The translations under genes and the position numbers were made by a program. This document shows positions 46,343 to 56,365 of a stretch of 64,000 bases of DNA, one piece after another. The DNA is from an uncultured Verrucomicrobiota bacterium (lineage in GTDB: Bacteria > Verrucomicrobiota > Verrucomicrobiia > Opitutales > Opitutaceae), in contig CAIUGM010000021.1 of NCBI GenBank assembly GCA_903898675.1, positions 1 through 64,000 on the forward strand. The letters run 5' to 3'. Positions within the stretch are counted from its first letter, which is position 1. Every line of letters starts with the position of its first letter. The notes beneath the pieces are model-generated. The model saw nothing but the letters and a program-made list of their open reading frames with translations, searched no databases and was not told the origin of the DNA.

Positions 46343-47959
46343 TCACTGGGCGACCGCCGTGGGCGTGCCGGTCTTCTGCGGGTGCTGCGCCCGGCCGCTG
46401 GACTGGCGGGACAGCACGTGGTTGAGGGAAGCGATGTACGCCTTGGCGCTGGCGACCACGATGTCGGTGTCGGCCCCGTGGCCGTGGCTGGAGCGCTGTT
46501 CCTCGTGGCGGACGCGCACGGTCGCCTCCGCGAGGGCGTCGATGCCCTCGGTGACACCGTTGATGCCGAATTCGAGCAGCGTGACCGGCACCTTGACGAT
46601 GGCGTCGATGGCCTTGTAGGTCGCGTCGACCGGCCCGGTGCCGATGGCGGCATGGACGTGGGTCTTCCCGTCCGGGTCGCGGAGGCGGACGGTGGCGGTG
46701 GGCAACCCGGTGGTCCCGCAGACCACCTGCAGGTTGTCCAGCGCCCAGAGTTCCGGCACCGTGGTCCGCTCATCCGAGGCGAGCGCGATCAAGTCGGCGT
46801 CGTGGACCGCCTTCTTGCGGTCGGCAAGTTTCTTGAACCCGTTGAAGGCCTTGAGCAGGGCGTCGCCGTCGAGCGGGTAGCCGAGCTCGGTCAGGCGCTT
46901 CGAGAACGCCGCGCGGCCGGAATGTTTGCCGAGCACAAGCATCGTCTGCGTCGCCCCGACATCCTCGGGCCGCATGATCTCGTAGGTCTGCGCGTTCTTG
47001 ATCATGCCGTCCTGGTGGATGCCGGACTCGTGCGCGAAGGCGTTGGCCCCCACGATGGACTTGTTGGGCGGCACCGGGTAGCTGGTGCTGCGCGAGACCA
47101 GTTTGCTGGTCCGGCAGAGCTGGGTGGCGTCGATGCCGGTGGTGAGACCGAGCTTCTCGCCCCGCGTGCGGATGGCCATGACGACCTCCTCGAGCGACGC
47201 GTTGCCCGCGCGCTCGCCAATGCCGTTGATGGTGACTTCCGCCTGGCGCGCGCCGGCGCGGAGGCCGGCGAGCGAATTCGCCACCGCCATGCCGAGGTCG
47301 TCGTGGCAATGCACCGAGATGACCACGTCCTTCGCGCCGGGCGTTTTCCCAATGATGCCCGCGATCAACGCCCCGAATTCGTCCGGCATGGTGTAGCCGA
47401 CCGTGTCCGGGATGTTGAGCGTGGTCGCGCCGGCCTTGATCACGGCCTCAAGCACCGTGTAGAGAAATTCGGGGTCGCTGCGGCCCGCATCCTCGGGCGA
47501 GAACTCGATGTCGGCGCAGAACGTTTTCGCGTACGCCACCATCTCCACCGCGCGCGCGGTCATCTCGGCCCGCGACATGCGGAGCTTGTGCTGGAGGTGA
47601 ATGTCGCTCGTCGCGAGGAAGGTGTGGATGCGCGGCCGCTTGGCGCCCTTGACGCCGTTCCACGCGGCCTCGATGTCGCTGCGCGTGCAGCGGGCGAGAC
47701 CGCAGATGACCGGCGGTTCGGCCTGCGGGCGGCCCTCGACGGGGACCTGCCCCACCTCGGCGGCGATGGCTTGCACCGCCGCCAGGTCGTCGGGTGACGC
47801 GGCCGGGAACCCCGCCTCGATCACGTCAACGCCGAGGCGGGCGAGTGCGCGGGCAACCTCGAGCTTTTCAGCGGAGGTCATGGAAGCACCGGGAGCCTGC
47901 TCGCCATCGCGGAGGCTGGTGTCGAAGATTCGGACGTAGGAAGGGGAAGAAGAATTCAT
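46343..47959 (-). CDS. leuA: 2-isopropylmalate synthase
   Basis: The 538-residue enzyme makes 2-isopropylmalate from 2-oxoisovalerate and acetyl-CoA, the first step of leucine synthesis. The signatures are [56 protein letters not shown] and [19 protein letters not shown]. The C-terminal allosteric domain (feedback by leucine) is present. The ATG at 47959 is preferred; upstream in-frame codons lack coding character. Confidence 0.96.
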
Positions 47960-47987
47960 GGGAATGAGAGTGTTTTGGACTGTTCGT

Positions 47988-48104
47988 TTAAATAATAACG
48001 GAGGACTGAAGCAGGAGCCGGCCGGTGGTTTTGAGGCGGAGCGCAAGATGCGCCGCCGCCGAACCACGCGGAAGCTCCTGAGTAAGTCGCAGTCGCAGAC
48101 CCAT
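47988..48104 (-). promoter_or_regulatory. Leu-rich candidate leader ORF before leuA
   Basis: The 235-bp ilvC-leuA gap contains a 38-codon minus-strand frame starting at 48104 (or 61 codons from 48173) and ending LLLQSSVII at 47988, 28 bases before leuA. It is rich in Leu and has an Ile-rich end. A perfect 7-bp stem with loop ggga lies just upstream at 48125-48142, but no T-run follows the ORF. The gap also holds nothing else that I can recognise. Weak evidence; it may be chance. Confidence 0.25.
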
Positions 48105-48193: not shown

Positions 48194-49204
48194 TTACTTC
48201 GAGATCGTGATCGGGTTCAGGAACGGCATCATCGCGCGCAGCTTGGCGCCGACGACCTCGATCTTCTGGCCGCGCTCCTTGTTCCGGAACTTGTCCATGG
48301 TCTTGCGACCATACTTGTTGTTCTCGTCGATGAAGCGCTTGGCGAACTTGCCGGTCTGGATGTCCTTGAGGATGGCCTTCATCTCCTTCTGCGTATTCTT
48401 CGTGACCACGCGCGGGCCGGAGACGTAGTCACCCCACTCCGCGGTGTCGGAGACGGAGTAACGCATGTAGTTGAGGCCGCCGCGGTACATCAGGTCCACG
48501 ATGAGCTTCAGCTCGTGCATGCACTCGAAGTAGGCGATCTCGGGCTGGTAACCGGCGTCGACCAGGGTCTTGAAGCCGGCCTTGACCAGTTCGGCGCAAC
48601 CGCCGCAGAGCACGGCCTGCTCGCCGAACAAGTCGGTCTCGGTCTCCTCCTTGAAGGTCGTCTCCAGCACGCCGGCGCGAGTGCAGCCGATGCCGCGGCC
48701 GTAGGACAGCGCGAGCTTCTTGGCCTTGCCGGTGGCATTTTGGTAGACCGCAATGAGGCCGGGGACGCCGCCGCCTTCCTGGAAGACCTCGCGCACACGG
48801 TGGCCCGGGGACTTCGGCGCGATCATGGTGACGTCGACATTCTTCGGCGGCACGATGCCCTTGAAGCGGATGTTAAAACCGTGGGCGAACATGAGCATCT
48901 TGCCGGCCGTCAGGTGCGGGGCGATCTCCTCGCGGTAGAGGCGCGCCTGGACGTGGTCCGGCACGAGCATCATGATGACATCGGCCCACGCGGAGACCGC
49001 GTCGACCGCGCCGACCGTCAAGCCGGCCTTCTTGGCCTTGGCGACGGACTTGCTCTTGGGGGAAAGACCGACGCGCACCTCGACGCCGCTCTCCTTCAGG
49101 TTGAGCGCATGGGCGTGGCCTTGCGAGCCGTAGCCGATGATCGCGACTTTCTTGGCGCGAATGAGCGAGAGGTTAGCGTCCTTGTCGTAGTAGATTTTAG
49201 CCAT
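48194..49204 (-). CDS. ilvC: Ketol-acid reductoisomerase
   Basis: The 336-residue class I enzyme uses NADPH and Mg2+ to convert acetolactate or acetohydroxybutyrate. The Rossmann start [20 protein letters not shown] and the short specificity loop ([16 protein letters not shown]) indicate NADPH preference. The catalytic part has [36 protein letters not shown] and the C-terminal [15 protein letters not shown]. It is between ilvN and leuA. Confidence 0.96.
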
Positions 49205-49255: not shown

Positions 49256-49831
49256 TTAAACGGACATGGAAACACCCGTGTCGTGCGCGTGGTCCTCGGC
49301 CTTGTGGCCGGCCACCTCGGCGCGGACCAGCGGAGGATTCGAGGACAGCGGCTCGTGGCCGCGGGCCATCGCCACGACCCCGGTCCGGACCATCTCAACG
49401 ATGCCGTAGGGGCGCAGCACGAGCTCGAACTTGCCGATCTTTTCCGGCGTGCCGGTGACCTCGATCACGAGGGCCTGGTCATCGACGTCCACCACGCGGG
49501 CGCGGAAGACATCGACCAGCTGCAGCACCTGGGTGCGCGTGTCGGGCGTGACGGTGACTTTCACCAGGCCGAGCTCGCGCATGAGCGCGGGCTTGCGGGT
49601 GAGGTCGTCGACGCGGAGGACGTTGACCAGCTTGTAGAGGTTCGCCTCGACGAGGCGGGCCCCGGCCTCGGTCGCCTCGACGACGACCGTGAGCCGGGAG
49701 ACGCCCGGCTGCTCGGCGCGGCCGACCGTGAGGGAATCGATGTTGAAGTTGCGGCGACGGAACAGCGAGGCGATGCGGTTCAGGACACCGGGCACGTCCT
49801 CGACGTAGGCAATGAGCGTATGTTTGGCCAT
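49256..49831 (-). CDS. ilvN: Acetolactate synthase regulatory subunit
   Basis: The 191-residue protein has the N-terminal ACT domain (LIAYVEDVPGVLNRIASLFR, NIDSLTVGRAEQPGVSRLTV) that binds valine, and a second ACT-like domain near residues 80-160. The protein stimulates and feedback-regulates IlvB. The length is slightly above the usual 160-170 owing to a C-terminal tail (RGHEPLSSNPPLVRAEVAGH). It lies 11 bases after ilvB. Confidence 0.93.
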   Translation of the reverse strand: MAKHTLIAYVEDVPGVLNRIASLFRRRNFNIDSLTVGRAEQPGVSRLTVVVEATEAGARLVEANLYKLVNVLRVDDLTRKPALMRELGLVKVTVTPDTRTQVLQLVDVFRARVVDVDDQALVIEVTGTPEKIGKFELVLRPYGIVEMVRTGVVAMARGHEPLSSNPPLVRAEVAGHKAEDHAHDTGVSMSV

Positions 49832-49842
49832 GACGGTAAGTA

Positions 49843-51750
49843 TTAACGGCGGGCAGTTGAACGTTTCTTGGTGGGAGCGACGCGCAAAGGCTTCGCGGCG
49901 ACCTTCACTGGCTTCGCGGATTTCTTCGCCGGCTTGGACAATTTCGCGGCCTTGCCGTGGCCGTTGAGCGACGCCTCGACGGCGGCCTCGACGAACACGC
50001 CGGGGAGCGTGGAGGAAGGCATCTCCCAGTCCTTGTCGGCACCGGATTCCGACATGACGTCCTGCTTCGGACGACGGATCATCTTGTCGAGCGCGGCGCC
50101 GGCCGGAACCATCGGGAACACCGTGTCTTCCTTCTCAACGACGAAATCGATGACGACCGTGCCCTTGGTGGCCAGGGTCTTCTCGACCGTCGCCTTGACG
50201 TCGGAGCGTTTGTTACAGCGCAGACCGGTGAGGCGATAGGCCTCGGCGAGCTTCGCGAAGTCCGGCCCAGTCATTGGCGTGGCCGCGTAGCGCTTGTCGT
50301 AGAAAAACTCCTGCCATTGGCGCACCATGCCGAGGAAGGCGTTGTTGATGATGGCCACGTTGACCTTGATACCCTCCTGCTCGGCGGTAGCCAGTTCGCA
50401 GCTGGTCATCTGGAAACCGCCGTCGCCGACAACCACCCAGACATCCTTCTCGGGGCAGGCGAACTTCGCGCCGATGGCGGCGGGAAGGGCGAAACCCATC
50501 GTGCCCAGTCCGCCAGAGGTGATGAGCGAGCGGGGCTTCTCGTGGTGGAAATACTGCGCCTCCCACATCTGGTGCTGGCCGACGTCGGTCACGACGATGG
50601 TGTTGCGCTTCTGCGTGAGGCGCCAGATGTCGTTGATGACATGCGCGGCATAGAGGTGGCCGCTGTCGGGCAAGGCCTGGATGTCGCGGACGGCGGAGTC
50701 GCCCTTCGCCGCGGCAATGGTGGCCCACCAGTCGGAGCGGTCGGCGGCGCGGACGCCGGGCAGGAGTTCTTCCAACACCTCGGCAAGGTCGCCGATCAGC
50801 GCGACATCGACGTGCACGTTCTTGTTCACCTCGGAGGGATCGATCTCGACGTGGATCTTCTTCGCGTGCGGTGCGTAGGTCTTGAGGTTGCCGGTGACGC
50901 GATCGTCGAAGCGCATGCCGAGCGCGATGATGAGATCGGCCTGCTGGATGGCCTCGTTCACCCACGCCTCGCCGTGCATGCCCATCATGCCGAGGTTGAG
51001 CGGGCTCGAGGCCGGAATGGCGCCGATGCCGAGCAACGTGACCGCGATTGGGGTCCGCGTGGTGTCGGCCAGCTCGAGCACCTGCGCGGTGGCGTTGGCC
51101 TTGATGACGCCCTGGCCGGCAAAGATGATCGGGCGCTTCGCGGTGTTGATGAGCTCGAGGGCCTTCGCGTATTCGCTCGGGAGCGCGCGGAGGTCGGGCC
51201 GGTAACCGGGCAGCTTCGGCGCGGCGGCCTCCCAGTCGAATTCACAGGTGAGCTGCTGCGCGTCCTTGGTGATGTCGACCAGCACCGGACCCGGGCGGCC
51301 GCTCTTGGCGATGTAGAAGGCCTCGCGGATGGCGCGGGCGATGTCATCGGGCCGCGTGACGAGATAATTGTGCTTGGTGATCGGCAGCGTGACGCCGGTC
51401 ACGTCCGTCTCCTGGAAAGCATCCGTGCCGATGGCCTTCGATCCGACCTGGCCGGTGATGCAGACGATGGGCGACGAGTCCATCATCGCGGTGGCGATGC
51501 CGGTGACCATGTTGGTCGCGCCGGGACCGGACGTGGCGATGGCGACGCCGACCTTGCCGCTCGCGCGGGCATAGCCGTCCGCCATGTGCGTGGCACCCTG
51601 TTCGTGGCGCACGAGCACGTGGTGGATCTTCGGGTACTTCGTCATCGCGTCATAGGTCGGCAGGATCGCGCCGCCCGGATAGCCGAACACGACGTCGACG
51701 CCTTCCTTCTGCAAACACTCCCAAATGATTTCTGCTCCGGTGAGTTTCAT
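49843..51750 (-). CDS. ilvB: Acetolactate synthase catalytic subunit
   Basis: The 635-residue thiamine-diphosphate enzyme is normal up to about residue 575: MKLTGAEIIWECLQKEGVDV, VFGYPGGAILPTYDA, RHEQGATHMADGYARASGKV and the C-terminal ThDP motif VVGDGGFQMTSCELATAEQE. After GVFVEAAVEASLNGHG it carries an extra Lys/Ala/Pro/Arg-rich tail ending KKRSTARR, absent from most homologues. The ATG at 51750 gives the family start. Confidence 0.95.
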   Translation of the reverse strand: MKLTGAEIIWECLQKEGVDVVFGYPGGAILPTYDAMTKYPKIHHVLVRHEQGATHMADGYARASGKVGVAIATSGPGATNMVTGIATAMMDSSPIVCITGQVGSKAIGTDAFQETDVTGVTLPITKHNYLVTRPDDIARAIREAFYIAKSGRPGPVLVDITKDAQQLTCEFDWEAAAPKLPGYRPDLRALPSEYAKALELINTAKRPIIFAGQGVIKANATAQVLELADTTRTPIAVTLLGIGAIPASSPLNLGMMGMHGEAWVNEAIQQADLIIALGMRFDDRVTGNLKTYAPHAKKIHVEIDPSEVNKNVHVDVALIGDLAEVLEELLPGVRAADRSDWWATIAAAKGDSAVRDIQALPDSGHLYAAHVINDIWRLTQKRNTIVVTDVGQHQMWEAQYFHHEKPRSLITSGGLGTMGFALPAAIGAKFACPEKDVWVVVGDGGFQMTSCELATAEQEGIKVNVAIINNAFLGMVRQWQEFFYDKRYAATPMTGPDFAKLAEAYRLTGLRCNKRSDVKATVEKTLATKGTVVIDFVVEKEDTVFPMVPAGAALDKMIRRPKQDVMSESGADKDWEMPSSTLPGVFVEAAVEASLNGHGKAAKLSKPAKKSAKPVKVAAKPLRVAPTKKRSTARR

Positions 51751-51784: not shown

Positions 51785-53455
51785 TTAAGTGGTGACCGCA
51801 CCTTGAGCGGCGGAGGAAACGGTATTCGCGTACTTGGCCATGACCCCGCGCTGGTACCGCGGGGCCGGCGGCGCCCAGCCCTGCCGGCGGGCAGCCAGCT
51901 CGGCCGCGGGGATGTCGACCTGCAACCGGCGGGTCGCGACGTCGATCTCGATGGGGTCGCCCTCGTGGACGAAGGCGATCAACCCGCCCACGAACGCCTC
52001 GGGCGCAACGTGGCCGATTGAAAATCCGCGCGTGGCGCCGGAGAAACGCCCGTCCGTCAGCAGCGCGACGGTCTCCGCCATGCCGGCGCCGGCGAGTGCG
52101 CCGGTGACACCGAGCATCTCGCGCATGCCGGGACCGCCCTTGGGTCCCTCGTAGCGGATGACGACCACGTCGCCCGGCTTGATCTGCTGCGCGTTGACGG
52201 CGGCCATGGCCGCCTCCTCGTTGTCGAAAACGCGCGCCGGGCCGCGGAAATGCTTGATCGCGCTACCAGCTACCTTGAGCACCCCGCCCTCCTCGGCGAG
52301 ATTGCCGTGGAGAATGACGAGACCGCCGGTGGCCTTGAAGGGTTTGTCGGTGGGACGGATGACCTGCTGGCCGGGCGTCTCGGGTGCGCCGGCCACTTCC
52401 TCGCCGATCGTCTTGCCGGTGACGGTGAGGCAATCCTTGTGAAGGAAACCGCCCTCAAGCAGACGGCGGAGCAGGAGCGAAATACCGCCGGCGTGGTGCA
52501 TCTCGACCGCCGTGTAGAGCCCGCCCGGCTTGACCGTGGCGATGGTCGGGGTCTTGGCGCTGATGGTGTCGAATTCGTCGATGTGCAGAGCCACGCCGGA
52601 CTCGCGCGCGAGGGCGAGCAGGTGCAACACCGCGTTGGTCGACCCACCCGATGCGGCGACGGACGCGATGGCGTTCTCGAAGGCCGCGCGGGTCATGATC
52701 TGTGAAGGCTTCAAATCCTTCCGGACGAGATCCATCACGATCTCACCGCAGCGGAACGCGGCCTGGTTCTTTTCCTCGGCGGTGGCAGGGATGCCGTTGA
52801 GCCCGACCGGGGAGATCCCGATGGCCTCCATGATCGTCGCCATGGTATTGGCCGTGAACTGGCCGCCGCAGGCGCCAGCCGTGGGGCAGGCCGCGTTTTC
52901 AACCTGAAGGAATTCCTTCGCGTCAATCTTGCCGGCGTTGAATGCGCCGACGGCCTCAAAGACGTCCTGCACCGTCAGCGCCTTGCCGTTGTGGTGTCCG
53001 TGGTTGATGGAACCGCCGTAGAGGGCGAGGCCGGGGAGATCCATCCTGGCCAAGGCCATCAAGACGCCGGGGTTGGTCTTGTCGCAGGCGGAAAGACAGA
53101 CGAGGCCGTCAAGGCTGTTGCCGCGGGCGACGAGCTCGATGGAGTCGGCGATGACCTCACGGCTGATGAGCGAGGTTTTCATGCCCTCGGTGCCCATCGT
53201 GATGCCGTCGGAGATCGAGACGGTGTTGAACTCGAGGGGGGTGCCGCCGGCGGCGCGAATGCCGGCTTTGACGTGTTCGGCGAGGGCCCGGAGATGGAAA
53301 TTGCAGGGCCCGATCTCGGTCCAGGTGTTGGCGACGCCGATGAGGGGCTTCTTGAGATCCTCGTCGGTAAACCCGATGGCTTTCATCATGGCGCGGGCGG
53401 GCGCGCGGCTTGGACCGTCGGTGACAACTTGGCTGTGGCGTTTGCCGGATTCCAT
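51785..53455 (-). CDS. ilvD: Dihydroxy-acid dehydratase
   Basis: The 556-residue iron-sulfur dehydratase completes Val and Ile synthesis. Features are KPLIGVANTWTEIGPCNFHL, VCLSACDKTNPGVLMALARM and ENAACPTAGACGGQFTANTM (cluster cysteines), and the C-terminal DGRFSGATRGFSIGHVAPEA. The ATG at 53455 is preferred over a TTG at 53470. It is the first structural gene of the operon; the leader ORF and terminator precede it by about 90 bases. Confidence 0.96.
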   Translation of the reverse strand: MESGKRHSQVVTDGPSRAPARAMMKAIGFTDEDLKKPLIGVANTWTEIGPCNFHLRALAEHVKAGIRAAGGTPLEFNTVSISDGITMGTEGMKTSLISREVIADSIELVARGNSLDGLVCLSACDKTNPGVLMALARMDLPGLALYGGSINHGHHNGKALTVQDVFEAVGAFNAGKIDAKEFLQVENAACPTAGACGGQFTANTMATIMEAIGISPVGLNGIPATAEEKNQAAFRCGEIVMDLVRKDLKPSQIMTRAAFENAIASVAASGGSTNAVLHLLALARESGVALHIDEFDTISAKTPTIATVKPGGLYTAVEMHHAGGISLLLRRLLEGGFLHKDCLTVTGKTIGEEVAGAPETPGQQVIRPTDKPFKATGGLVILHGNLAEEGGVLKVAGSAIKHFRGPARVFDNEEAAMAAVNAQQIKPGDVVVIRYEGPKGGPGMREMLGVTGALAGAGMAETVALLTDGRFSGATRGFSIGHVAPEAFVGGLIAFVHEGDPIEIDVATRRLQVDIPAAELAARRQGWAPPAPRYQRGVMAKYANTVSSAAQGAVTT

Positions 53456-53546
53456 GGGGGTAAAGTTCAACCGACGCTGCCGAAATTATGGCGGCGCGGC
53501 GAGGATTGGTTGTAAAAATTTATACTGGATTGCGTCATACGCGGAA

Positions 53547-53577
53547 AATAAAAAAACCGCCCCTTTTCGGTGGGCGG
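53547..53577 (-). terminator. Attenuator terminator before ilvD
   Basis: On the minus strand CCGCCC (complement of 53572-53577) pairs with GGGCGG (complement of 53557-53562) over a short loop containing ACCGAAAAG, followed by TTTTTTTATTTT. Its upstream arm lies within the segment AGCCGCCCA (53571-53579) that can pair instead with TGGGCGGCT in the leader ORF (53626-53634). Confidence 0.85.
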
Positions 53578-53603
53578 CTTCCTGGTTTTGAGAGTTTTTA
53601 CTC

Positions 53604-53708
53604 TTAGGAGCTAGTGGCTTCAGTGAGCCGCCCATGTGTGTTCGGGTCCGCAGCCAGAATGGCCAGGACTACGGTAATAAGCACAATAAGGGCTACGTTG
53701 AGGATCAT
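53604..53708 (-). CDS. ilvL: ilv leader peptide, 34 aa, Ile/Val/Leu-rich
   Basis: The ATG at 53708 opens a 34-codon ORF whose residues 1-18 are MILNVALIVLITVVLAIL; 13 of the 17 codons after Met are Ile, Val or Leu. The second half (AADPNTHGRLTEATSS) is ordinary. It ends 27 bases before the attenuator hairpin and 149 bases before the ilvD ATG. The composition and position are those of leader peptides that sense branched-chain aminoacyl-tRNA by ribosome stalling. No clear Shine-Dalgarno site is visible, and the name ilvL is by analogy. Confidence 0.8.
   Translation of the reverse strand: MILNVALIVLITVVLAILAADPNTHGRLTEATSS
53626..53634 (-). promoter_or_regulatory. Candidate antiterminator segment 2 of the ilv attenuator
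   Basis: TGGGCGGCT in the leader RNA (codons 25-28) is the exact reverse complement of AGCCGCCCA (53571-53579), which contains the 5' arm of the terminator. A 9-bp pairing would prevent the terminator from forming. This is read directly from the sequence; the mechanism is inferred from classical attenuation. Confidence 0.7.
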
Positions 53709-53811
53709 GACTGAGCGCGGTGAAGCTGTTAATCGGCACATTCTCTGTCAACACTCGTTTCTAATTTATGACATTAGGTGCGCAGCTCTGTCACAGCCCG
53801 CGGTTTCATTG

Positions 53812-53861
53812 TAGCAGCCGTCGTTAGACGGCTGGCGCCAGCGCTCTTACGAGCGCTGCTA
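53812..53861. repeat. REPIN-like doublet: two hairpins in inverted orientation
   Basis: The 50-bp element is symmetrical about ggcgcc (53834-53839). The outer arms tagcagc and gctgcta pair; inside are two different hairpins, agccgtc-gtta-gacggct and agcgctc-ttac-gagcgct. The left half begins GTAG and the right half, reversed, begins ATAG, like the REP tetranucleotide. It lies between thrA and the ilv leader. Confidence 0.65.
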
Positions 53862-53875
53862 TGGACTAACGCCGC

Positions 53876-56365
53876 TCACCTCCGACCGCGGATATTCTGC
53901 GCAAGTCGCAGAATGTCAGCGAGCACGCCGGCGGCGGTCACTTCCCCACCGGCACCGGCGCCGCGGACCACCATGGGGTATTCGCGATAACGCTCCGTGT
54001 GAAATGCGACGAATGCCTCGGCTCCCCGCAACGCGGCGGCGGGATGTGAGGCCTCCACCTCCACCGGTCCCACGGAAACTTTCGGGCCCTCGGCGCCCGG
54101 CGTGATGCGGGCCAGGTAGCGCGGCAGCCGGCCCTGCGCGATGCAGGTGGCCACGCGGGCGGCCACGGCGGCATCAAGGCTCGTGAGCGCCTGAAGAAAC
54201 TTCTCGGGATCGTCCTCCCGCAGGTTTTCCGCGGGCACGAATGGCTCGAGCACCACGTCGGTGAGGTCCACGAGCAGGCCGAGTTCACGTGCGAGGATGA
54301 TCGCCTTGCGGGCCACGTCGAGGCCGGACAAGTCGTCGCGCGGGTGCGGCTCCGTATAACCAAGATCCTTCGCCTTGCGCACCGCGACCGAGAGCGGATC
54401 GCCCTGCACCAGCCGGTCGCACAGGAAGCCGAGCGTGCCGGAGAACGCGCCCTCGATCGTGATCACATGGTCGCCCGTGCGCACCAGGTTCTTCAGCGTC
54501 TCGATGACGGGCAGCGCCGCGCCCACGGTGGTCTCGTAATGATACGCACGGAAATGCCGGCGCGCCTCGTCGCGCAGCGCATCGCGTTCCGCCTGCGGCA
54601 GCGCCAGGGGCTGCTTGTTGGCCGACACGACATTCACGCCCTGCGCAAAGGCGGCACGGTAAATCTTCTCCATCCCGGGGGCCGCCGAGCAGTCCACCAG
54701 CACGGGATTCGGGAGCCGCGAAAGTTTTTCCAGGAGCGAGGTGACGTCCTTGACGACCTTCCCCTCCCCGAGCGCCTTCTGCAGCCGCGTGATCGCCTCG
54801 GCCGAAGGCAGGCCGTCGGGATCGAACAGGGCGCCGCCACTCGAGCCGATGCCCACGAGCCGCACCTGCACGTCGTGCTCGCGGCCGAGCGCCTTGTTCT
54901 GCCGCTCGATCTGCTTGAGGAGACTGCTGCCGACCACGCCCTTGCCGAGCAGCAGCACGCTGATCTCGGTATGCGCGAGGTTAAAGGCGCCATGCACCGT
55001 GCGGACGGCCGTGGCCGTCTGGTCGGCGTCCACGACGCACGAAATGCTGCGGGCCGATGCGCCCTGCGCCACGGCGCGGACGGCGATGCCCGCCGCCCCG
55101 ATCGCATTGAGGAATTTCCCGGCGACGTTCGGCCGGCCGGCCATGTTCTCGCCGACGAGGGTGACCAGCGTGACCGGCGAAAGCACCGGCTCAATCCGCA
55201 GGTCCCCCGTCTGCAACTCGGCAGCCAGCGCGTCGGCCACGCTCCGGCGCGCGTTGGCCTCGTCGATCGCAGGAATTACCACGGAAAATGATTGGCCGAG
55301 CGTCGACTCCGTGGTCATCCAGACTCGCACGCCCGCTTCGCTGAGGGCGGCCAGGATGCGACCGCCCAGTGGGCGGCCCAGGCCGGTCCGCCGCGACTGC
55401 ACGCCCAGCAAAGTCAGGCGCTCCAGGCTGGTCACACAGGTCGGGCGGTTGGGATCGGGATTGCCGGTCGCGTCGATGCGCGTGCCGGGGGCATCGGGCT
55501 GGGTGGTGCTGCGGATGACCAGGGCCGCACCGCATTCCCGCAGCGGGATGATTGTGCGCGGGTGAAACATCCGGGTGCCGAAATAAGCGAGCTCGAGCGC
55601 CTCATCGTAGGACAGCCGGTCCACGGGCGACGCCTCGCGCACCAGGGCGGGGTCGGCGGTCATCACGCCGAGCACGTCCGTCCAGACGGTGACCGAACTC
55701 GCCTTGAGCAGGCCGGCGACGAGCGTCGCGGTGTAATCGGAGCCGTTGCGCCCGAGGGTCGTGGTGTGGCCGTCGCGCGTCCGGCCGATGAAGCCGGTGA
55801 CGATCGGGACCTTGCCCGCCCAGTTGGCGTGGACCGCCGCGAAGCGTTCCGCCGTCGCCGCCTTGTCCACGGTGGCGGAACCATGCGTGCCGTCGGTGAC
55901 CACAAAGTCGCGCGCATCCACCGGAATCGCCGGGACCTCGCGCTCGTTCAGGGCGCGGGCCAGCAGGGCCACGGAGATGCGTTCGCCCACACTGATGATC
56001 GCGTCGAGCGTCCGGGGCGAACATTCGCGGGTCAGTTCGATGCCCGAGAGCAGGCGCTCCACCGGGGTCAAAATCTCGTCGAGGTCGTGCTTCACGCCTT
56101 TCTGGCCCTGGCTGTTGAGCACGGCGCGGGCGGTGGCATTGGCCAGTTCGCGCACCTGGGTCAGTTCCCGCCGGGCCTGGCTGATGTTGCCCACTTCCGC
56201 CGAGCGCGCGGCCAGGATGAGCCAGTCGGTGCTGTCGCCGAGGGCCGAGACGACCAGCGCCAGCGGACGCGGCGCCGCGACCACCAGCTCCAGCACCTTG
56301 GGCAGACGCCCGGAAGTGCCGAGGGAGGAGCCGCCAAACTTATAAACCTGCCAGCGTTCGCTCAT
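53876..56365 (-). CDS. thrA: Bifunctional aspartokinase/homoserine dehydrogenase
   Basis: The 829-residue fusion has an N-terminal aspartokinase (VYKFGGSSLGTSGRLPKVLE, FIGRTRDGHTTTLGRNGSDY), two ACT-type regulatory domains, and a C-terminal homoserine dehydrogenase with VLLLGKGVVGSSLLKQIERQ and FSGTLGFLCDRL. It catalyses the first and third steps to homoserine. The ATG overlaps the metX stop (TAATG), so metX and thrA are coupled. Confidence 0.95.
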   Translation of the reverse strand: MSERWQVYKFGGSSLGTSGRLPKVLELVVAAPRPLALVVSALGDSTDWLILAARSAEVGNISQARRELTQVRELANATARAVLNSQGQKGVKHDLDEILTPVERLLSGIELTRECSPRTLDAIISVGERISVALLARALNEREVPAIPVDARDFVVTDGTHGSATVDKAATAERFAAVHANWAGKVPIVTGFIGRTRDGHTTTLGRNGSDYTATLVAGLLKASSVTVWTDVLGVMTADPALVREASPVDRLSYDEALELAYFGTRMFHPRTIIPLRECGAALVIRSTTQPDAPGTRIDATGNPDPNRPTCVTSLERLTLLGVQSRRTGLGRPLGGRILAALSEAGVRVWMTTESTLGQSFSVVIPAIDEANARRSVADALAAELQTGDLRIEPVLSPVTLVTLVGENMAGRPNVAGKFLNAIGAAGIAVRAVAQGASARSISCVVDADQTATAVRTVHGAFNLAHTEISVLLLGKGVVGSSLLKQIERQNKALGREHDVQVRLVGIGSSGGALFDPDGLPSAEAITRLQKALGEGKVVKDVTSLLEKLSRLPNPVLVDCSAAPGMEKIYRAAFAQGVNVVSANKQPLALPQAERDALRDEARRHFRAYHYETTVGAALPVIETLKNLVRTGDHVITIEGAFSGTLGFLCDRLVQGDPLSVAVRKAKDLGYTEPHPRDDLSGLDVARKAIILARELGLLVDLTDVVLEPFVPAENLREDDPEKFLQALTSLDAAVAARVATCIAQGRLPRYLARITPGAEGPKVSVGPVEVEASHPAAALRGAEAFVAFHTERYREYPMVVRGAGAGGEVTAAGVLADILRLAQNIRGRR

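Follow-up and report, generated by a model that had tools for sequence, protein, structure and literature searches.

How the branched-chain amino acid operon of this uncultured member of the Opitutaceae (Verrucomicrobiota) is controlled is the question raised by a small open reading frame (ORF), crowded with isoleucine, valine and leucine codons, that lies ahead of ilvD in the window, that is, in the whole stretch of 64,000 nucleotides that was analyzed. The reading that we favor, with a probability of roughly 0.88, takes this region as a ribosome-mediated transcription attenuator of ilvDBNC-leuA that would respond to the charging of the tRNAs for Ile, Val and Leu; such a switch in the RNA would, very probably, restrict expression of the ilv operon to times when these amino acids are short. 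The genes and leader elements of the locus all lie on the minus strand. Gene names were taken from NCBIfam, each match scoring above the curated cut-off, which identified ilvD (dihydroxy-acid dehydratase, 51785-53455; TIGR00110, 690 bits, cut-off 618), ilvB (acetolactate synthase large subunit, 49843-51750; TIGR00118, 745 bits, cut-off 538), ilvN (acetolactate synthase small subunit, 49256-49831; TIGR00119, 166 bits, cut-off 57), ilvC (ketol-acid reductoisomerase, 48194-49204; TIGR00465, 433 bits, cut-off 226) and leuA (2-isopropylmalate synthase, TIGR00973, 683 bits, cut-off 599), the true start of the last probably lying inside its ORF at 46343-48067. Given these identities and the richness of the leader in Ile, Val and Leu, the characteristic residues of the leader are therefore the products of the operon.

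The surroundings of the leader hold several further elements. The upstream neighbor, on the same strand, encodes a bifunctional aspartate kinase/homoserine dehydrogenase and ends at 53876, and two adjacent perfect 8-bp REP-like hairpins (53812-53861), one of them covered by a sub-threshold match to the Rfam family Acido-Lenti-1, lie between this gene and the predicted leader promoter. Between the terminator and ilvD there is a second small ORF, MTQSSINFYNQSSPRRHNFGSVG (53467-53538), with its stop 11 nt ahead of ilvD. An ORF of 13-25 amino acids occupies this place at 24 of the 27 loci compared below, mostly ending 10-13 nt before ilvD in leaders of class A and overlapping the ilvD start in six of the nine of class B. 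The ilvD of the window has no obvious Shine-Dalgarno sequence, hence translational coupling with the second small ORF is possible.

The leader ORF itself (53604-53708) starts with an ATG at 53708 and closes with a TAA ending at 53604. Its 34 sense codons encode MILNVALIVLITVVLAILAADPNTHGRLTEATSS, in which Ile, Val and Leu make up 13 of the 17 residues at codons 2-18, exactly as the preliminary description had read them from the sequence. In a census of the 471 ORFs of 16-60 amino acids in the window, this ORF alone reached at least 11 Ile/Val/Leu residues in any 17 codons, and none of 1199 ORFs of the same size range did so in 155 kb from 36 other loci. The intrinsic terminator that had been placed 3' of the ORF is present at 53580-53545, where AAGCCGCCC-ACCGAAAAG-GGGCGGTT is followed by a U-run (whole stretch, AAGCCGCCCACCGAAAAGGGGCGGTTTTTTTATTTT); it was missed by a simple terminator scan, whose loop limit of 8 is probably the reason, the loop here being 9. 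Segment 3, AAGCCGCCCA (53571-53580), is common to the terminator and the predicted antiterminator, and segment 4 (GGGCGG) and the U-run occupy 53545-53562, the terminator fold being found at 27/27 loci. The candidate 5' strand of the antiterminator, segment 2 (TGGGCGGCT, 53626-53634), runs from the last base of codon 25 to the second base of codon 28 and includes a Gly-Arg pair of codons. Read from 53634 to 53626, it can form 9 uninterrupted pairs with AGCCGCCCA (53579-53571), its perfect reverse complement, a match that confirms the complementarity originally claimed for codons 25-28, and an inverted-repeat search returned the same pair as 14-nt arms that are 86% complementary. Two small hairpins accompany these segments: AGC-N5-GCT within the antiterminator (53609-53619; AGT-N5-ACT in L004 and L042, and unpaired in one sequence), and AGAGT-AAAA-ACTCT at the stop codon (53591-53604), for which most loci have a GAG/CTC-type stem, L008 and L011 have AAATC/GATTT, and L004 and L042 yielded none.

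To place the leader in an evolutionary context, ilvD genes at least 79% identical were gathered from the family's genomes (14 of 150) and from 18 of 80 contigs returned; after the exclusion of 5 duplicates, the 32 loci came to 27 distinct ones, which are closely related, and counts over them are not counts of independent events. The genera named among the 18 contigs are Lacunisphaera, Candidatus Didemnitutus and Oleiharenicola. At every one of the 27 loci a leader rich in Ile, Val and Leu, 32-34 codons long, begins 226-261 nt ahead of the annotated ilvD match, and the complementary segment and the terminator are present as well. The ORF picker demanded GGGCG within the ORF, and a ranking free of this rule put the same ORF first at 26 of the 27 loci and, in a separate run, at L032 as well. 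The leaders fall into two classes, A (18 loci, like MILNVALIVLITVVLALLATDPNTHGRLAKATSS) and B (nine loci, like MTNSRSLLSINFLATIIIVVVILLTPNTGRLSNT), which share only the Gly-Arg pair (G26, R27); this pair is invariant among the 21 peptides that were aligned and present in the other six, and its codons are the GGG CGG of segment 2 (CGA for Arg in L037). Upstream of 16 other Opitutaceae ilvD genes (49-51% identity), no such leader was found within 500 nt (272 nt for L028).

Codon choice in the leaders departs from that of six ORFs of the window, as counted over 28 loci including one duplicate, the codons of related loci not being independent. The Ile codon ATT accounts for 70/84 in the leaders versus 24/172 in the window ORFs, the Leu codon CTT for 62/163 versus 22/305, the Val codon GTA for 15/111 versus 3/279 and the Gly codon GGG for 28/29 versus 34/305. 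The leaders favor rare Ile and Leu codons. For the pairing of segments 2 and 3, a recoding test kept the peptide fixed, drew codons from the window genes in 1000 trials and scored the duplex with segment 3. An equal or better duplex arose in only 0-22 of 1000 recodings at 24 of the 27 loci; the test failed at L037 (269), L043 (116) and L044 (104). Eight of the nine 2:3 pairs are invariant across the 17 distinct class A sequences, with almost no covariation, as expected if segment 3 has two obligatory partners. The antiterminator is predicted to be stabler than the terminator at 25 of the 27 loci, the exceptions being L037 and L011, of which the latter has an extra hairpin in the stretch compared.

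The preliminary description had attached a caveat to its proposal, namely that a ribosome paused at the stop codon would already have passed the segment, 20-28 nt ahead of it. The distance is right, and in class A generally the stop codon stands about 19 nt past segment 2. A protector hairpin would resolve this difficulty, because by the time the ribosome reaches the stop codon the entire protector lies behind it. RNAalifold predicted such a fold for class A, CCGUC-GUCC-UGGCC ... GGCCA-C-GGAC ... GGCGG, drawn from codons 12-21 and segment 2. In the window, its inner helix GUCC-UGGCC / GGCUG-C-GGAC covers codons 14-21 (53646-53669) and its outer helix (53628-53674) joins 53674-53670 with the GGCGG (53632-53628) of segment 2, one of these five pairs being an A-G mismatch. 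Over the 17 distinct class A sequences 98.8% of the outer-helix cells are paired, and over the whole class A protector 96.6% of 237 cells are. Double changes occur at three pairs, all in the inner helix, in five cells, for example GGCC/GGCC to AGCC/GGCU and GUCC/GGAC to GUUC/GAAC. The observed covariation score was reached by 0 of 500 shuffles and the number of double-change pairs by 4 of 500, a control that relatedness can inflate, and the count of further pair types was matched by 59 of 500. Slid versions of the protector paired in just 29-48%, a comparison in which a structure derived from the alignment favors the unslid version. The compensatory changes support a class A protector hairpin. 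In class B the Ile codons form one hairpin, and a second, weak one takes in segment 2; jointly they are 96% paired, and their pairs showed no excess over shuffles.

The relatives had been singled out early on as the place to look for a conserved peptide and for covarying pairings, and at the level of sequence the comparison establishes the leader, the promoter box, the terminator, the 2:3 pairing and the protector pairing together with their conservation: leader, segment, terminator and TTGAC box recur at 27/27 loci and the protector covaries, but the 2:3 pairing is almost invariant. A comparison that could have told against the attenuator reading did not do so, and the operon fits the amino acids of the leader; the reading thus emerged supported.

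The putative leader promoter has a TTGACA -35 box at 53746-53751, and TTGAC is kept at 27/27 distinct loci, with TTGACA at 18/18 of class A. A possible -10 element, CAGCTT (53723-53728), follows at a distance of 17 nt; a CA-initial hexamer at this spacing occurs at 17/18 class A and 7/9 class B loci, and this -10 candidate bears little resemblance to TATAAT. With the start assumed to lie 35 nt after the beginning of the -35 box, transcription is predicted to begin near 53716, which would give the window leader a 5' UTR of about 8 nt; the predicted lengths are 4-12 nt in class A and 9-15 nt in class B (9 nt for L035). No 4-mer of AGGAGG was found within 20 nt upstream of the leader start at any of the 27 loci. 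Because the predicted 5' UTR is short and a Shine-Dalgarno sequence is lacking, translation of the ilv leader probably begins at a near-leaderless mRNA end. Leaderless leader peptides occur elsewhere.

From these elements we infer the start point, the translation of the ORF, the order of events and the response to starvation as follows. Transcription would begin a few bases ahead of the leader ORF, and a ribosome short of branched-chain aminoacyl-tRNA would stall at codons 2-18. The stalled ribosome would open the protector, so that segment 2 (GGGCGGCT) could pair with segment 3 (AGCCGCCC) once the latter is made; with segment 3 occupied, segment 4 would be left without a partner, no terminator would form and the polymerase would continue into ilvD. 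Given an ample supply of these amino acids, the ribosome would move over segment 2 toward the stop codon and either mask segment 2 or, in class A, let the protector re-capture it behind the ribosome, whereupon segments 3 and 4 would form the terminator.

Folding with the ribosome placed along the leader was modeled in two ways, the first forbidding any pair to cross the ribosome and the second allowing pairs to span it. In the no-crossing model the 2:3 pairing has a mean probability of 0.99-1.00 with the P site at least 14 (class A) or 11 (class B) codons before the stop and of at most 0.11 at positions nearer the stop; once the ribosome has reached the stop in class A, the probability that segment 2 is paired to the RNA upstream, on the protector side, is 1.00. 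Within the permissive zone of this model lie 202/228 of the Ile/Val/Leu codons in class A and 108/116 in class B (310/344 in total), as well as 189/379 and 109/182, respectively, of the other codons. If no ribosome is present, equilibrium folding prefers the antiterminator to the protector, by 0.98 versus 0.02 in class A and 0.92 versus 0.09 in class B, and with spanning pairs allowed and a class A ribosome at the stop the antiterminator wins again (0.89-1.00; 18 loci, two footprint sizes). In class B, segment 2 is covered by a ribosome at the stop, and both models give the antiterminator a probability of 0.00. Hence, as both calculations disfavor the protector, the class A fed state would need steric hindrance or kinetics. 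The caveat of the preliminary description may in this way be answered: all four classical segments are present and a covarying candidate protector would offer a solution, but equilibrium folding speaks against it.

The same results leave some room for a default-on attenuator, in which the translating or terminating ribosome, seated in the antiterminator loop of a near-leaderless mRNA, would itself be the anti-antiterminator. This variant is suggested by the class A stop codon standing so far past segment 2 and by the antiterminator outcompeting the protector at equilibrium; we hold it to be a minority possibility, perhaps one chance in a few. In the E. coli trp attenuator an untranslated leader does not read through. 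If the default-on variant were true, an untranslated leader would read through here, the opposite of that behavior.

Returning to an attenuator that senses charged tRNAs, we searched for related switches by running a class A covariance model on 273 genomes of the order, of which 69 matched at E <=0.1. The model finds class B only marginally (E 0.0016 in G040), and little can be read from its silence elsewhere. Fourteen weak matches (L147-L160, two of them from the leader-bearing genera) resemble plain terminators that lie within or after other genes, and were set aside. Two genomes, G113 and the window's own (G000), gave one further match each (E 4.6e-8 and 2e-6). In G000 this second match is a Phe/Tyr-rich leader, MNRVAAYFYFGFAGYFTPQNVGGYSQRKL (L141; G000:C24:35634-35782, minus strand), which precedes a DAHP-synthase-like gene; it is built on a similar switch plan, with the segment GGGCGGCT and a terminator. 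The best NCBIfam match of the gene that follows is 3-deoxy-7-phosphoheptulonate synthase, at 279-281 bits against a cut-off of 335 in the three of nine genes scanned. The aromatic leader occurs in nine genomes, with the segment shortened to GGCGGC in three (L142-L144), and prefers TTT (35/51 versus 14/69). Recoding of the nine aromatic leaders gave no significant result (129-520 of 1000 trials), because Gly-Gly codons readily give GGCGGC. The ilv and aromatic leaders are not claimed as copies of one cassette, since the terminator and the GGCGGC spacing can explain the match.

A histidine counterpart, MVLNHHHHHAC with a terminator, precedes hisG in the same genome (L192 and L232; G000:C27:71342 onward), and a His5 leader with terminator was present before hisG in 6/6 genomes examined, from two genera. 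The motif M[IV]LNHHHH, which misses the MVSN form of G071, was sought in 387 genomes of the phylum and found in five, every one of them from the two leader-bearing genera. The G000 his leader matches the Rfam family His_leader (RF00514) over the full model with 38.4 bits (gathering score 49), a likeness that concerns this hisG leader and not the ilv leader; three of nine weak RF00514 matches fall at real His leaders (G000, G037, G071), and no His-run ORF was found at the other six. No Trp leader was found before seven PF04715 (trpE-type) genes in six genomes, that of G000 being uninformative at a contig end. Beyond these, 28 other ilvB loci in the order were inspected, and a leader rich in Val, such as MKFNLLVVLVKVVVVVVASNESARA, accompanied by a terminator was present before ilvB at six of them, which represent three families; these six (L204, L209, L213, L217, L218 and L223) have a TTGACA about 40 nt ahead of the ATG. 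When 62 ilvD loci of more distant origin were compared, the highest Ile/Val/Leu content (11 in 14) was that of ORFs in two Thermoflexales (Chloroflexota; L047, L048), where they lie 473 and 509 nt before ilvD and are followed by the hairpin GAGCCACCC; ten others have ORFs with 8-9 in 14. The ilvD of the Thermoflexales, at 66-69% identity, stands nearer than that of the 16 other Opitutaceae (roughly 50%), which suggests a transfer of the gene between phyla.

Other explanations were weighed as well. Both leader classes form long hydrophobic runs able to span a membrane, as would suit a functional small membrane protein whose transcript ends at the terminator and whose complementarity to segment 3 is incidental. 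Such a protein would hardly be left with Gly-Arg, the pairing codons, as its only residues invariant across the classes, however, and synonymous codon choice keeps the pairing at 24/27 loci, the protector shows compensatory changes and the composition of the parallel leaders (Phe/Tyr-rich or His5) matches the pathway downstream, all of which makes this explanation improbable. Still less probable is that the hairpin simply terminates transcription of the aspartate kinase/homoserine dehydrogenase gene, with an ilvD promoter downstream of 53545 and an ORF arisen by chance: the terminator does come after that gene, which ends on the same strand at 53876, but the TTGAC box ahead of the leader is kept at 27/27 loci, as is the ORF, unique among 471. 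That another sensor (a T-box, a riboswitch or a protein) works the terminator, the ORF being minor, we consider the least credible, for although terminator/antiterminator pairs are shared by T-box, riboswitch and protein-controlled switches alike, the leader contains no Rfam family at cut-off (four tRNAs only in the whole window; within 53300-54000, up to E 5, three matches, all under cut-off and no T-box), and the predicted start leaves about 8 nt before the ORF.

Ribosome-mediated attenuation is thus the reading to be set against known systems. In E. coli, ilvGMEDA (ilvL) and ilvBN (ivbL) are preceded by an Ile/Val/Leu-rich leader peptide with protector, antiterminator and terminator segments. 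The leader described here is like them in the type of leader peptide, in its terminator, antiterminator and predicted protector segments and in the pathway, with no claim of sequence kinship, and differs in lacking a Shine-Dalgarno sequence, in its predicted 5' UTR of 4-15 nt and in its operon, ilvDBNC-leuA. The mechanism is known, then, and no description of attenuation or leader peptides in Verrucomicrobiota was found in the PMC library searched, outside of which most subscription journals stand; this agrees with the preliminary description, which knew of none in the phylum, and an earlier one is possible. Chlamydia is a PVC bacterium. Leader peptides of the trp type have been proposed there (PMC3937554). 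As excerpted, a 2010 study knew leader-peptide systems, ermC apart, only from Proteobacteria and Actinobacteria, and these excerpts hold no mention of Verrucomicrobi or Opitutus (PMC2965389). For Corynebacterium ilvBNC (ilvB-II motif), the sources describe three hairpins (anti-antiterminator, antiterminator and terminator) and a branched-chain leader peptide; the three-hairpin logic, a GCC segment contesting the terminator base and the type of peptide are alike, whereas the phylum, the position before ilvB rather than ilvD, the segments and the peptide itself differ (PMC10272879, PMC11857589). Leader ORFs have also been proposed for Leptospira and for the ilvB-OMG motif, whose 41 representatives come from various phyla (PMC10272879). 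The Staphylococcus aureus ilvD leader likewise has a peptide of branched-chain codons and a terminator before ilvD, but its proposed antiterminator sequesters the U-tail of the terminator and not its 5' arm (PMC5794164).

Together, these observations provide strong comparative evidence that a lineage of the Opitutaceae controls its branched-chain pathway by ribosome-mediated attenuation. Like leaders stand before aromatic and histidine genes in the same lineage, and three other families use separate Val-rich ilvB leaders. With no Shine-Dalgarno sequence and predicted 5' UTRs of 4-15 nt, the ilv leaders would offer a test case for attenuation on near-leaderless mRNA.
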